In this document: positions 7,700-13,238 of the stretch, piece after piece
Numbering within the stretch: position 1 is the stretch's first letter
Layout: each line of letters starts with the position of its first letter
From: Actinomycetes bacterium
GTDB taxonomy: Bacteria > Actinomycetota > Thermoleophilia > Solirubrobacterales > Solirubrobacteraceae
Direction of reading: 5' to 3'
DNA length: 47,208 bases
NCBI GenBank assembly: GCA_021820105.1
Contig: JAKAED010000012.1
Location: 1-47,208, forward strand
The notes under the pieces: generated by a model
The model's database searches: none
What the model was told of the DNA's origin: nothing
Seen by the model: the letters and a program-made list of their open reading frames with translations, nothing else
Made by a program: the position numbers and the translations under genes

Positions 7700-8871
7700 G
7701 AGACGGCTGTGCCCGCCGGCAGCTCGCCTCGGCCCGCCGGGATACGAGCCAATCCGGATGCCAACGCCGTCAGCGCCAGCTGATGCGACTGCCTGCCGCC
7801 CAATGGTTCGATCCGCCCGTCACGAAGATCTCTTACCCGGATCATCTCGTCACGGTCATGGCTGCGCCTGACCGGCGCCGAAAGAGCGGCGAGGCGGTAG
7901 GCCGGCCGCGGATCGGAGGCGCCCTGCAGGGCGGCGAGCGCGGGCCGTACAAAGAGCTCGAAGCAGACCAGCACCGAGACAGGGTTGCCTGGAATTCCAA
8001 AGACAAGCGTCCGTTCACGCACCCCGAAGCTGAGTGGCTTGCCGGGCTTGAGCGCGATCCGCCAGAACAGCTCCCGCACACCCAGGTCACGCTCGATCTC
8101 TCGCACCAGGTCGTGCACTCCGACGGAGACGCCACCGGTGCTCACCAGGACGTCAGAATCGAGCGCCTGCGTGAGCGCATCGCGGTGCGCTGCGGCCGTG
8201 TCAGCGGCGGTTGGAACCGTGACCACCTCGGCACCGGCAGCGGTCAGCGCAGCTTGCAGCAGCGGGCCATTGGAGTTGTAGATCTGGCCTGGGCCGAGCG
8301 TCTCACCGACCGCGCGCACCTCACTTCCGGTGGTCACAACTGCCACGCGTGGCCGCCGGATGCAGCGCAGAGAAGCGGCGCCGAGCGAGGCTGCGGCGCC
8401 GATCTGAGCGGCCGTCAGGCGCAGACCCGCCGGCAACACCTCAGCACCGCTGCGGACGTCACTGCCCGCGGCCCGCACGGCCGCGCCGGGAGCCACCTGG
8501 TGACGAACCTCCAGCAGGCGTCCAGGCTCGCGCACCCAGGCGTCCTCTATGGGAACCACCGCGTCTGCGCCCTCTGGGATCACAGCGCCCGTTGAGATCG
8601 CGATCGCCTCACCGTGCCCGATGCGACCGGCGTACGGGGCTCCCGCGGCGGACTCGCCAATGACTGCAAAGTCACCCGGAGTGTCCTCGGCGCGCAGCGC
8701 GAAGCCATCCATCGCAGAGCCCGCAAACGCGGGGAGATCGCGTGTGGCGCGCAGCGCCTCCGCCAGGTAACGGCCTGGCGCAGCCGTGAGCGGGAGATCC
8801 TCGGCCTCCAGGATGCGCGCCTGCTCGAGCACGAGCTCAAGCGCCGTGTCTATGGCCAGCAGCTCACTCAT
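7672..8871 (-). CDS. moeA: Molybdopterin molybdenumtransferase MoeA
   Basis: The 399-residue product inserts molybdate into adenylylated molybdopterin, the last step of molybdenum-cofactor synthesis. Seen: the N-terminal LPLTAAPGRYLAEALRA region, AFAGSAMDGFALR (conserved substrate-site motif), ISTGAVIPEGADAVVPIE, the MPT-binding domain with VAVVTTGSEV, STGGVSVGVHDLV, and KPGKPLSFG...FGIPGNPVS, then the C-terminal beta domain. The ATG at 8871 fits the family N-terminus; a longer open frame runs back inside the ATPase gene and is spurious. It overlaps the preceding ATPase gene by eight bases and is translationally coupled to it. No other cofactor genes are in the window. Confidence 0.95.
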   Translation of the reverse strand: MSELLAIDTALELVLEQARILEAEDLPLTAAPGRYLAEALRATRDLPAFAGSAMDGFALRAEDTPGDFAVIGESAAGAPYAGRIGHGEAIAISTGAVIPEGADAVVPIEDAWVREPGRLLEVRHQVAPGAAVRAAGSDVRSGAEVLPAGLRLTAAQIGAAASLGAASLRCIRRPRVAVVTTGSEVRAVGETLGPGQIYNSNGPLLQAALTAAGAEVVTVPTAADTAAAHRDALTQALDSDVLVSTGGVSVGVHDLVREIERDLGVRELFWRIALKPGKPLSFGVRERTLVFGIPGNPVSVLVCFELFVRPALAALQGASDPRPAYRLAALSAPVRRSHDRDEMIRVRDLRDGRIEPLGGRQSHQLALTALASGLARIPAGRGELPAGTAVSYLSLTGES

Positions 8872-9937
8872 CGAACAACACCCGGTATATCGCCAGTAGG
8901 CCCGCAATGTCGTGGATGTCATCTGGCAGGTCCGGGACCTGCAGGATCGGCTCGTCCAAGAACGCGCTCTGCAGGCGCCTGATGTTGGCGGCGTCGCGCT
9001 CGGCGAGCACGGCGTGATCGCTTGTGCACTCGGCCAGGCGTGCGCGCAGGTCCTTGGGGAGGTCAAGCGGGACCTCCCCAAGGGAGACCGGCGGGTTGAC
9101 GCGGTTGACGATCGCGCCGCTGAACGGCATCCGGTCGCGGCGCAGGCTCTCACGGAACCAGACCGCCTCCTCGACCGGCCGATCCTGTGCCGAGGTCACC
9201 AGTACAAAGGCGGTCTCGGGTGCGTGCAGCAGCTGCTCGACCCGCGCGGCGCGCGCGTTGAACTGCTCGGTCATGCCGCCGAGCAGGGTGAAGAACGTGG
9301 TCACATCCGACACCAGATCAACACCCGTCACCAGCTTGAGCGCGGCCAGCACCGGCCCAGCGCCAAGCCCGAGCAACCGCATGCCGACGCCGGTCGGGCG
9401 CAGCAGAGCCTGCAGCGCGCCACCACCGAGGAAGGCGGTCAATCGGCCGGGCGCGTTGAGGAACTCAGCGGCACTGTGGGCTGGGGGAGTGTCCAGCACC
9501 AGCAGGTCAAAGTCGGCCTCGGCAAGCTCGTAGAGCTTCTCGATCGCCGTGAACTCCTGCGAGCCTGAGACGGCGGAGGAGAGCTCCCTGTAGACGCGGT
9601 TGCGCTTGATCTCCTCGGCTCGCTCGGGGCTTGGGGCGAGGCGCTCGATCAGCTCGTCAAACGTGCGCTTCGGGTCCAGCATCATCGCCCACAGCTCGCC
9701 GCGCAGCTCAACGCCCGGCAGACGGTCGGGCGAGACCAGCCGCGGGTCGTTCTCAAGCTGCTCAAGCCCGAGCGCGTTGGCCAGTCGCCGGGCGGGATCG
9801 ATCGTCACCACCGCAACCTTCTGACCCTGAGCCGCCATGCCGAGCGCGATCGCGGCGGCGGTCGTGGTCTTGCCGACGCCGCCCGCGCCCACGCAGATGC
9901 AGGTCCGTTTGCCGGCGAGCAGCTCGGCGGCGCTCAT
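8864..9937 (-). CDS. ArsA/GET3-family ATPase (second of a pair)
   Basis: This 357-residue ATPase of the SIMIBI class has the P-loop GAGGVGKTT near residues 17-25, the switch TIDPARRLANALG, FDLLVLDTPPAHSAAEFL with the Walker B Asp, and NRVNPP near the C-terminus. The arsenite-binding Cys triad of ArsA is not evident. The paired arrangement resembles mycobacterial Rv3679-Rv3680, two ArsA/GET3-like ATPases that work together; a link to that function is inference. It overlaps the partner ATPase by four bases (ATGA) and moeA by eight, forming one transcript of three genes. Confidence 0.9.
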   Translation of the reverse strand: MSAAELLAGKRTCICVGAGGVGKTTTAAAIALGMAAQGQKVAVVTIDPARRLANALGLEQLENDPRLVSPDRLPGVELRGELWAMMLDPKRTFDELIERLAPSPERAEEIKRNRVYRELSSAVSGSQEFTAIEKLYELAEADFDLLVLDTPPAHSAAEFLNAPGRLTAFLGGGALQALLRPTGVGMRLLGLGAGPVLAALKLVTGVDLVSDVTTFFTLLGGMTEQFNARAARVEQLLHAPETAFVLVTSAQDRPVEEAVWFRESLRRDRMPFSGAIVNRVNPPVSLGEVPLDLPKDLRARLAECTSDHAVLAERDAANIRRLQSAFLDEPILQVPDLPDDIHDIAGLLAIYRVLFDE

Positions 9938-10878
9938 GGAGTCTGCTCCTTGGAGGCTGAGGCCGGGTCCCCGCCCGTTCGTTCAAGCTCGCGAGCCAGG
10001 CGCTCAAGCTCGGGGAGCCTCAGGCTGCGCTCGAACAGGAACGGGAGCACCATCAGGCGGTCTCCGAAGCTCTCCCGCAGACGTCGCTCCTGCTCGCGCT
10101 GGGTTTCGGCGCGCCGGTGCTCGGCCAGCGCGAGCTGCAGGGGAGTCGCCGCTTCGGGTGCAGTGTCCGCGGCCGCGGACGCCGCGCTGTCCATGTGCGC
10201 GGCCTCAGCCGCCGTGAAGCGATCGGGGTAGCGGGCGTTGAGGATCACAGCCTGCAGTTCAAGCGGCTCGGGTCCGGCGCTCAGCCTCTCGCTGAGCTCC
10301 AGCGTCTCATTGACCGGCATCTCCTCTGGCGTTGAGACCGCCACCACGGCGGTGAAGGCAGGATCGGCGATCGTGTCGGCAATGGTGCGGGCCTGATGCG
10401 CGATCGGGCCAACGCGGGCGATCTCCGCAAACGTCCGCGGCGTGCGCAGGATCGCGGCTCCATGTCCGGATGCCGGGGCGTCCACCACGACCAGGTCAAA
10501 TGCGTCAGCGTCAGGTGTGCGCCGCTCGAACTGAGCCAACTCCCAGAGCTTGCCGATGCAGAGGAGCTCACGCATGCCCGGCGTTGCCATCGCAAAGGTG
10601 TGAAAGAGACGACTCTGACGCAGCACGTGAGCCGCAGGGCCGGGCACCTTCACGGTCAGGTACTCCTCCATGGCGCTCTGCGGGTCCACGGAGAGCCGGA
10701 ACAGGCCCGGTGCGAGCTCCGTCTCGTGCGGATCACCGTCACCCTCCAGATCCACGACGATCGTCCGCAGTCCGGCGCGGGCCCCCGCCAGACCCAGTGC
10801 GAGTGCAACCGTCGACTTACCGACGCCGCCCTTACCGGTGGCGAAGATCAGGCGGCGGCTCAGCAACGGAAGCGACAC
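9934..10878 (-). CDS. ArsA/GET3-family ATPase (first of a pair)
   Basis: The 314-residue product opens with LIFATGKGGVGKST (P-loop near residues 15-23). It carries a shortened switch region (VVDLEGDGDPHE), FDLVVVDAPASGHGA as Walker B, and a charged, Ala-rich helical tail. It is shorter and more divergent than the downstream partner, as in the Rv3679/Rv3680 pair of mycobacteria, where unequal subunits are thought to form a heteromer. No Cys metal site is seen. It is the first gene of the minus-strand operon ATPase-ATPase-moeA and is divergent from parA across 121 bases. Confidence 0.88.
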   Translation of the reverse strand: MSLPLLSRRLIFATGKGGVGKSTVALALGLAGARAGLRTIVVDLEGDGDPHETELAPGLFRLSVDPQSAMEEYLTVKVPGPAAHVLRQSRLFHTFAMATPGMRELLCIGKLWELAQFERRTPDADAFDLVVVDAPASGHGAAILRTPRTFAEIARVGPIAHQARTIADTIADPAFTAVVAVSTPEEMPVNETLELSERLSAGPEPLELQAVILNARYPDRFTAAEAAHMDSAASAAADTAPEAATPLQLALAEHRRAETQREQERRLRESFGDRLMVLPFLFERSLRLPELERLARELERTGGDPASASKEQTP

Positions 10879-10999: not shown

Positions 11000-11767
11000 G
11001 TGACGGCCAACCTCGAGGTGATTGCGTTCGCCAACCAGAAGGGCGGCGTCGCCAAGACCACCACAACGCTGAATCTCGCCGCGGCATTTGCAGAGGAGGG
11101 CTATCGCGTCCTCTGCTGTGACATGGATCCCCAGGGGAACCTCACAATGTCGCAGGGGATCGATCCAGACAACCTGAAGGCATCGATGTATGACGTGCTG
11201 GTGCACAAGATGTCGATCAGGCAGGTGATCCATAAGCGCGAGGTGGACGTCGCCTGCGCCTCAATCGACCTTGCCGGCGCGGAGATCGCGATGTCGACCA
11301 TGATCGGTCGCGAGCGTGCGCTCGAGCGCGCTCTGAACGAGGTCGCCGATGATTACGACTACTGCTTCATTGACACTCCGCCGAGTCTTGGACTGCTGAC
11401 GATCAACGCGCTCACGGCGGCGAACAGGGTGATCGTCCCCGTCCAGTGCGAGTATTTGTCCATGCGGGGTCTGATCCAGCTGCAGAATACGCTCGCGATG
11501 ATCCGCGAGAACCTGAATCCTGACGTGGACATTCAGGGGATCCTGCCGACGATGGTCGACACCCGCACGCTGCATGCGAAGGAGGCGATCGAGTTGCTGG
11601 AGGAGAACTTTGGCGACCGGGTGTTCGCCTCCAGGATCCGCAAGACGGTTCGCTTTGCTGAGGCACCTGTGAAGGGAATGTCGGTGCTCAAGTACGATCC
11701 TGACGGAATCGCAGCGCACTCCTACCGTCAGCTTGCGAAGGAGGTCCTCTCCAATGCCCACAGCTAA
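11000..11767 (+). CDS. parA: ParA-family partition ATPase
   Basis: The 255-residue product is a ParA/MinD-type ATPase with the deviant Walker [10 protein letters not shown] (near residues 15-23), DMDPQGNL as Walker A'/switch, and [19 protein letters not shown] as Walker B. These proteins bind nucleoid DNA as ATP dimers and position cargo. GTG start at 11000 with GGAGG seven bases upstream. No parB follows. Instead the gene overlaps an ftsZ by 14 bases, so ParA and FtsZ are made from one message. That pairing suggests a role in positioning division rather than plasmid-type partition (inference). Confidence 0.93.
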
Positions 11768-13238
11768 GCGCGCGAGCATGCGCGAGGGACCACTCTCCCA
11801 GCTCTTCCGCAAGACCGCACAGGACACCGAGACTCCGGTCCAAGAGCCCGAGGCTGCGGCTCCCGCTCCCGCTGTCGCGGAGCCGGCTGAACAGCGAGCG
11901 CTGCCGCATCCATCACTGCGTCCATCCGTCCCTGCGGATGCCGAGGTTGCCGAGACCGGTGGGGTCGGAACCGGAGAGCCCCGGCTTCCGGGTGTTCCCT
12001 CCCCGCAACAGCGCCTTGAGTCCGCGTTCGCCGCCGATATCCCTGCGAGCCTGATGGATCCAGCTCCGGCGAGACCGGCTACGCCGGCTGCGCCTGCGCC
12101 CGCGCATGACGTCTACGCGCGCACCGAGGGCTTCTACGACCAGCCGGTCTCCTCGATCAGGCCGGTGGGCCGACCGGTGATCCGCGTCGTCGGCGTCGGC
12201 GGAGCCGGCGTGAACGCGGTCAACCGTATGATCGAGGCTGGGATCGAGGGCGTCGAGTTCGTCGCCATCAACACGGATCTGCAGTCGCTGCAGATCTCGG
12301 CGGCCGACACCACGGTGCATATCGGAGACGCGATCACGCGGGGCCTCGGCTCCGGTGCCAATCCCGAACTGGGCCGCCAGGCCGCGCGCGAGGAGTACGA
12401 CCAGATCAAGGCCGTGCTCCGCGGGGCGGACATGGTCTTCATCGCCGCCGGGGCAGGTGGCGGTACGGGTACGGGCGCCGCGCCGGTGGTCGCCCAGATC
12501 TCACGCGAACTGGGTGCGCTCACGGTTGGCATCGTCACCCGACCCTTCCAGTTTGAGGGTACGCGGCGACGTGATCAGGCGGAGGCCGGGATCGAGGCGT
12601 TGGCCGAGGTTGTCGACACGCTGATCGTCGTTCCGAACAACAGGTTGCTGACGGTGCTTGATCGCAATACGACGATGGTTGACGCCTTCCGGGTTGCAGA
12701 TGACGTGCTGCGCCAGGGTGTGCAGGGAATCTCGGACCTGGTGACGCTACCCGGCCTGATCAACCTCGACTTTGCGGATGTGCGCACGATCATGTCCGAT
12801 GCCGGCAGCGCCCTGCTCGGGATCGGGATGGGCACCGGTGAGCGGCGTGCGGTGGATGCCGCCGAGGCGGCCGTGGCCTCGCCACTGCTCGAGACGAGCA
12901 TGGAGGGAGCACGGTCGATCCTGCTCTCGATCACCGGCGGTTCCGACATCTCCCTGTGGGAGGTGAATGAGGCGGCCCGCGCGGTCGCCGAAGCGGCGCA
13001 CCCGGAGGCGAACATCATCTTCGGCGCGATGGTCGACGAGAAGATTGAGGGCGATCAGGTGTGGATCACCGTGGTTGCGACCGGTTACGACGATCGGCGG
13101 CAGAGCGGGCGGTTGGTCGAGCCCAGAGGCGAGCCGCGGGTGAGCCGCAGCCGCGAGCGGGAGGACTCGGCTGCGCCGCTGCGCGCACCGCGTATCGCGG
13201 ACGTGCTCGAGGTACCGGAGTTCATCCCCCGCGGTTGA
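11754..13238 (+). CDS. ftsZ: Cell division GTPase FtsZ with long N-terminal extension
   Basis: The 494-residue tubulin-like GTPase forms the division ring. The core spans about residues 141-450: [15 protein letters not shown], the tubulin signature GAGGGTGTG at 233-241, PFQFEG, and the T7 catalytic loop NLDFADV at 337-343. It ends with [12 protein letters not shown], the conserved C-terminal peptide that binds partners such as SepF. The first 140 residues are unusual: a basic peptide ([16 protein letters not shown], 5-20) and then a disordered Pro/Ala/Glu-rich linker. Typical FtsZ extensions are about 10-30 residues. Start ATG 11754 has AAGGAGG nine bases upstream, inside the end of parA. There are no dcw-cluster neighbours. 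Confidence 0.95.

Follow-up and report, generated by a model that had tools for sequence, protein, structure and literature searches.

The window analysed here is a stretch of 47,208 nucleotides (nt) from an Actinomycetes bacterium of the family Solirubrobacteraceae, class Thermoleophilia (assembly GCA_021820105.1, contig JAKAED010000012.1, positions 1 to 47,208). It contains a pair of overlapping genes, parA and ftsZ2, coding for an orphan-type P-loop ATPase and for the second FtsZ of this genome. In the list of open reading frames (ORFs) the start of ftsZ2 had been placed at an in-frame TTG at 11733; the ATG at 11754 was adopted instead. The features of the pair are the following, with expectation values given as E and the predicted local distance difference test of the structural models as pLDDT.

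11000-11767, plus strand: parA, 255 amino acids (aa), GTG start, P-loop ATPase of the orphan clade and gene partner of ftsZ2 (PF13614, E 1.1e-60)
11039-11062, plus strand: deviant Walker A motif KGGVAKTT with both lysines (K14 and K19), invariant in the 22-row ParA alignment
11738-11744, plus strand: AAGGAGG, likely ribosome site of ftsZ2, within parA (from the sequence)
11754-11767, plus strand: overlap of parA and ftsZ2, 14 nt (from the ORF coordinates)
11754-13238, plus strand: ftsZ2, 494 aa, ATG at 11754, second FtsZ of the genome (TIGR00065, 418 bits)
11766-11816, plus strand: conserved N-terminal peptide, FtsZ2 residues 5-21, the proposed contact with ParA (from profile and motif comparison)
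11817-12173, plus strand: Ala/Pro-rich linker, FtsZ2 residues 22-140, mostly disordered by prediction (from pLDDT and composition)
11991-12059, plus strand: second short motif within the linker (found in several families of the order)
12174-13091, plus strand: GTPase and C-terminal domains of FtsZ, with GGGTGTG and the T7 loop NLDFAD intact (from domain search and motifs)
13206-13235, plus strand: FtsZ C-terminal peptide, 10 residues (from the sequence)

The preliminary description of the window had pictured a parA whose 3' end holds the ribosome site and start of an FtsZ, the latter carrying a basic peptide and a long disordered linker, some 140 residues in all, before its GTPase core. This anatomy is confirmed. 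The protein scores above the curated cut-offs of TIGR00065 (295 bits), PF00091 and PF12327, and the Pfam Tubulin domain begins at residue 143, which gives an extension of about 140 residues with the onset of the fold at 140-143. The first 24 residues hold five K/R against two D/E, a short basic N-terminus followed by predicted disorder. Ala and Pro make up 39% of residues 25-138. In the AlphaFold2 model (33 sequences, mean pLDDT 65, predicted template modelling score 0.59) the core is predicted with moderate to good confidence and the linker as disordered, with pLDDT below 50 at residues 26-77 and 93-138. Linker length varies from 20 to 163 residues among 134 distinct FtsZ2 (median 106.5). The T7 loop (NxDxxD) is kept in 37 of 37 sampled FtsZ2 and GGGTG in 36, the exception being a member of family f5 (L230) with GGGMGSG. 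A C-terminal anchor-like peptide, read by eye, is recognisable in 34 of the 37, that of the window included; it is not recognisable in three f5 proteins (L074, L223 and L230).

Two further observations concern the linker. In family f6 (L067 and L068) it is nearly gone (~20 residues) and the peptide is retained, a natural linker deletion. The second motif resembles PSPQERLRxAFSSDIPxxxxE, is conserved in several families of the order and is absent from the Gaiellales rows among those listed; a low-confidence helix is predicted within it at residues 84-91 of the window protein, and it may be another docking site.

The association of both genes extends to the whole class. A ParA gene overlaps or adjoins upstream, with its stop within 120 nt of the peptide, in all 136 distinct peptide-bearing FtsZ2 loci, so that the search for parA-ftsZ adjacency across Thermoleophilia proposed in the preliminary description gave a uniform answer. 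In 74 of these loci the ParA stop falls 8 nt into the motif, in 37 it precedes the motif by 10 nt, and in 25 it lies elsewhere. No ParA was found near any of 23 FtsZ1 of the class (the other FtsZ, see below) or of 14 outgroup FtsZ. The 136 loci were collected through the FtsZ core alone (46; L018-L050, L067-L070, L072, L074-L077 and L195-L198), through the peptide (75) and as hand-picked stretches (15); the peptide route biases the count of peptides and not that of ParAs. Five loci were set aside from this count: L109 and L110 are second frames of FtsZ2 loci, L212 and L219 offer too little sequence upstream, and L224 (genome G077, contig C19) is an FtsZ2 with neither peptide nor ParA. In this last case the contig runs for 690 nt upstream, without N and with the end of another gene, and neither element was found there; it represents either a joint loss of peptide and ParA or a misassembly. 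Long open frames (860-1191 codons) in some genomes suggested ParA-FtsZ fusions, a candidate rejected for the four that were read because ParA lies there in a different frame. The parA-ftsZ2 architecture is beyond chance, since the peptide and the gene overlap recur throughout the class.

To call the peptide basic, as had been done, is correct for its charge and understates it, since most families keep a specific motif, R-x-S-M-R-E-G-P-L-x-x-L-F-R-x-T. The variants are REGPLAALFR-like in most families, DGLNELFRR in f6, SGLSALFR in f8 and GALANLF in f9, with a common core G-(P/A/V/none)-L-x-x-L-F. AlphaFold2 predicts, at low confidence, a helix at residues 13-24. A hidden Markov model (HMM) built from 17 N-terminal peptides, with E counted per genome and accepted up to 0.1, matched 353 of 399 class genomes and 205 of the 215 good ones, which answers the proposal that a REGPLxxLFRK-type motif be sought in the class. 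Ten of the 353 best matches have E 0.02-0.08, five of them in good genomes, and could arise by chance because E is per genome. Of the class genomes listed in a draw of 396 across the phylum, 38 in number, the peptide was matched in 34; outside the class it was matched weakly (E 1e-3 to 5e-3) in three of 358. The class genomes without a match include G004 and G006, which carry the pair with a diverged peptide; the other two are G077, already described, and G016. The 80 database records retained, out of 204 confirmed as peptide-bearing among 274 stretches, include among their taxa Gaiella (in Thermoleophilia), Gaiellaceae, Solirubrobacterales and Thermoleophilia; two are labelled Acidobacteriota and Burkholderiales, both names of metagenome-assembled genomes.

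The positions of the motif proper were demanded by the search pattern and hence prove nothing on selection. Two flanking residues were not demanded. In the 120 rows that match the strict motif, the T three residues after LF, T(+3), is invariant with four codons in use and lies outside the ParA overlap, and R(-3), in or beside the overlap, is invariant with six codons in use. These alignments indicate that the peptide is under purifying selection at the protein level. Dual coding was considered as a cause of the conservation and rejected: in 132 of the 136 loci the frame of ParA ends ahead of the motif or no more than 8 nt within it, which leaves GPLxxLFRxT unexplained by dual coding at these loci. 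Family f9 (L226, L229, L233 and L234), where the start codon of FtsZ2 is tentative, has a longer overlap, with the ParA frame ending 41-44 nt beyond the motif start and the peptide dual-coded.

FtsZ2 is not the only FtsZ of the cell, a candidate view refuted by another ftsZ (FtsZ1) of the same genome. This one lies in a division and cell wall (dcw)-type cluster, MurE, MurF, MraY, FtsW, MurG, MurC, MurB, FtsQ and FtsZ (names assigned by eye from the ORFs), split between the ends of two contigs, C20 and C38, into halves that we take to be one gene. A ParA-ParB pair is also present, on contig C264, and holds the only ParB_N match of the genome. All 19 genomes searched from other families of the class gave two FtsZ matches, as did all four additional genomes of the order; each of 15 phylum genomes outside the class gave one. 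In a wider draw of the class, with three candidates per genome scored, some genomes have a single match, among them the fairly complete G054, G091 and G168. In an unrooted tree a 100/99 branch separates 37 FtsZ2 from 22 FtsZ1 and 15 outgroup rows, as would be expected if FtsZ2 arose by a single old duplication or was acquired once, before the class diverged. The class-wide peptide and this tree also refute the idea of FtsZ2 as a unique or recent oddity.

What had been said of the system as a whole is thereby supported in part. Indirect support comes from the lack of a ParB beside this ParA, from the basic conserved peptide on a linker predicted to be disordered and from the joint occurrence of peptide-bearing FtsZ and ParA at all 136 loci. 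That parA has no parB partner is true of the locus and not of the genome, given the pair on C264. Of a division system without Min or ParB, the first part has indirect support, MinC (PF03775) having been found in none of 32 class genomes searched (the control detected it in six of 14), and the second does not stand. The preliminary description had counted against itself a standard parB-parA and a short FtsZ existing alongside, together with a peptide that does not touch ParA; a ParB-ParA pair and an ordinary FtsZ do exist alongside. The pair of the window is an added FtsZ2-ParA pair.

The ParA of the window has as its best PDB sequence matches the M. smegmatis entries 4pfs/5ihp/5if9, and its model resembles Soj structures (template modelling scores 0.84-0.90) as well as M. 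smegmatis ones. Arginines R189 and R218 are invariant in 22 of 22 rows and are, judged by motif, candidate equivalents of the DNA-binding arginine pair of Soj (R189/R218). No parB lies beside this parA, the gene downstream being ftsZ2, so that it is not a ParABS locus as defined by an adjacent parB. In the ParA tree (L067, too short, and L189, without ParA match, were omitted) the 36 FtsZ2-linked ParAs form one clade (100/100) and the 29 ParB-linked ParAs of the class stand apart (100/98). The former group (97/92) with seven outgroup actinobacterial orphan ParAs and with L008, a long-branched ParA of the window's own genome; three ParAs of that genome have very long branches, which makes their placement unsure. 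A plasmid origin was rejected, since ParA identity stays below 60% among the best 5000 plasmid records and a small partner protein of the kind described next has no plasmid match.

Three of the outgroup loci give an independent hint regarding the peptide. In L241, L242 and L255 a ParA of this larger (97/92) group overlaps a small downstream ORF of 119-123 aa with an N-terminus, RASLPGADELFR[RSP]T, similar to the FtsZ2 peptide, and with a conserved C-terminal part:

L241, 2252-2611, plus strand: small ORF overlapping the 3' end of the orphan ParA
L255, 2249-2608, plus strand: small ORF overlapping the 3' end of the orphan ParA
L242, minus strand: small ORF overlapping its orphan ParA

When an HMM of 22 FtsZ2 peptides was run against 2785 outgroup ORFs, two of these three ranked first and second. 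The RASLPGADELFR ORFs gave no Pfam or NCBIfam match (two tested) and no PDB or plasmid match (one tested), and it is possible that they represent an unnamed family of ParA partners. In the outgroup loci studied, ParAs of the group tend to be overlapped at the 3' side by a small gene, the counterpart of which in Thermoleophilia is ftsZ2. In another of them (L243) the ParA is followed by scpA.

At L240 (2250-2486, plus strand), L245 and L256 the small ORF that overlaps the orphan ParA downstream is Cys-rich. Those tested (two) have zinc-ribbon-like matches below the Pfam cut-offs, and ALYSAS, ALFSAA or PLFSAA occurs in the N-terminal part of these ORFs. They are perhaps another type of partner with an LF-like tag.

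The gene neighbours of the parA-ftsZ2 pair differ among the three loci in which they were read: an ArsA-like pair and a LON domain, a cupin and a gamma-glutamyltranspeptidase, and a major facilitator superfamily protein. No third gene is common to these three surroundings. In the window the ArsA/GET3-like ATPase pair lies at 8864-9937 and 9934-10878 on the minus strand, divergent from parA. NCBIfam models exist for a mycobacterial ATPase pair, BagA/BagB.

The explanation we favour, with a likelihood somewhat better than even, is that FtsZ2 is the direct partner of ParA through its N-terminal peptide and that ParA positions or restrains FtsZ2 filaments. We infer both the contact and the direction of control. 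The reading of FtsZ2 as the partner draws on the overlapping genes kept together class-wide, on the conserved peptide and the selection acting on it, on the intact FtsZ motifs, on the separate ParA clade, on the joint lack of peptide and ParA in G077, on the similar N-terminus of the three outgroup ORFs and on the absence of MinC from the class genomes searched, and judging from these FtsZ2 is probably the dedicated cargo of the adjacent ParA and the activator of its ATPase. Reports on orphan ParAs count in its favour as well: loss of pldP gives minicells and PldP is seen at the division site (PMC3989709), and Rv1708/MSMEG_3743 affect division and complement the loss of minDE in E. coli, with filamentation on overexpression of MSMEG_3743 (PMC10482377). 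In such a system, ATP-bound ParA dimers would coat the nucleoid and bind FtsZ2 there by its N-terminal peptides, a contact that would trigger ATP hydrolysis. Since FtsZ2 filaments would carry many of these tags, ParA would grip a filament multivalently, and could either hold FtsZ2 above the nucleoid or at a distance from it, or move clusters containing it. The outcome would be a Z ring between segregated nucleoids, perhaps as a co-polymer of FtsZ1 and FtsZ2, and the overlapping translation would provide a steady ratio of ParA to FtsZ2. More tentatively, and with a chance that we put slightly below even, the pair may be a minimal two-protein division-site system, in which FtsZ is at once filament, cargo and activator of its own nucleoid-bound ParA, without an adaptor (MinC, MipZ, PomX/Y or ParB), fixed before the class diverged. 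Such a system would have arisen once a duplicated ftsZ took up an orphan ParA's partner peptide and replaced a small partner protein.

Several observations weigh against the explanation favoured. The two best-ranking RASLPGADELFR ORFs score E 0.23 and 0.78 only, and that of L242 is not among the matches listed. The confidence of AlphaFold2 in the peptide helix is low, and residues 217-228 of the window ParA, including one of the two arginines, have pLDDT below 50. By eye SGLSALFR of f8 resembles KGLSALI of ParB, but with a position-specific scoring matrix from ParB N-termini the likeness to LGRGLxALI lacks significance (shuffle fractions 0.09-0.63, or 0.13-0.20 with one deletion allowed), and the homology was rejected as evidence. 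The resemblance of the f9 peptide, being dual-coded, counts little and was not used as evidence. MSMEG_3743 is reported from the membrane/cell-wall fraction and interpreted there as MinD-like rather than nucleoid-binding (PMC10482377), a result that speaks little for a mechanism based on the nucleoid. Finally, it may equally well be FtsZ2 that controls ParA.

This last point leads to an alternative in which the contact is real but reversed in direction: the ring of FtsZ2 brings ParA to the septum via the peptide, ParA acts with SMC/ScpA to clear or shift chromosome ends as the septum closes, and the Z ring is placed independently of ParA. The anatomical evidence fits it equally well, an orphan ParA of the group adjoins scpA (L243), and Rv1708 is reported to bind ScpA and ParB (PMC10482377). 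In a related but not identical system, deletion of the orphan ParA gene pldP, whose product is found at the division site, is reported to yield minicells without a significant segregation defect (PMC3989709), which argues against it, and we regard the alternative as unlikely.

The peptide might otherwise serve as a membrane or divisome anchor, an amphipathic helix or a docking site of the SepF/FtsA type, with parA merely co-expressed. FtsZ needs tethers, and a short basic stretch with L..LF and a predicted helix at residues 13-24 would suit this role. Most families, though, keep specific residues (R, S, G, P, L, LF and T) and not mere character, none of the 136 peptide-bearing loci lacks this ParA, a comparable peptide opens an unrelated small protein encoded next to related ParAs, and most sampled FtsZ2 (34 of 37) already have a recognisable anchor-like peptide at the C-terminus, all of which makes an anchor improbable. 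Quite improbable, in our view, is an ordinary operon in which ParA and FtsZ2 are co-expressed and act in separate pathways, the peptide binding some third protein. Gene overlap by itself implies co-translation and not contact, as this explanation would have it; against it stand the linkage at every one of the 136 loci and the lack of a common third gene in the three loci read.

The pair bears on septum placement in actinobacteria without MinC, since an entire class appears to have hard-wired an orphan-type ParA to an FtsZ paralog; if this is true, one short peptide makes ring placement testable. Like MipZ-ParB of Caulobacter and MinCDE, the pair would have a P-loop ATPase acting on FtsZ. MipZ itself inhibits FtsZ and is linked to ParB, and MinD works through MinC. 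Here, in contrast, no MinC was detected in the class genomes searched and no ParB is present at the window locus. Partners of ParA/MinD ATPases generally bind them and stimulate ATP hydrolysis via a short, basic and flexible N-terminal peptide, according to published accounts (PMC10241942, PMC13170346). The PomX/PomY/PomZ system of Myxococcus shares with the pair, as reported, a DNA-binding ParA/MinD ATPase, a basic activating N-terminal peptide (PomX NPEP) and the position of the Z ring as output (PMC13170346), and differs in that its peptide is on an adaptor that recruits FtsZ, while here it would sit on FtsZ itself. A few bacteria have been described with an extra ftsZ outside dcw, some in conserved loci; that survey names Bipolaricaulota, and words starting with 'Thermoleophil' or 'Actinobact' are absent from its main text (PMC9871819). 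Our literature search, with most subscription journals outside its coverage, returned no ParA-coupled FtsZ in Thermoleophilia.

The window ParA resembles PldP (C. glutamicum cg1610) and Rv1708/MSMEG_3743 in that it groups with actinobacterial orphan ParAs (in a tree that holds neither PldP nor Rv1708), in having no ParB gene beside it, and in that one ParA grouped with it is followed by scpA, the arrangement also of Rv1708-type genes. It differs from them in that its gene is overlapped by that of an FtsZ paralog tagged at the N-terminus; no ScpA was found among the five window neighbours scanned. For PldP, the divisome contact is reported as unidentified (PMC3989709). The ParA-FtsZ2 pair would be a variation on ParA/MinD-based positioning and not a machine of a new kind.
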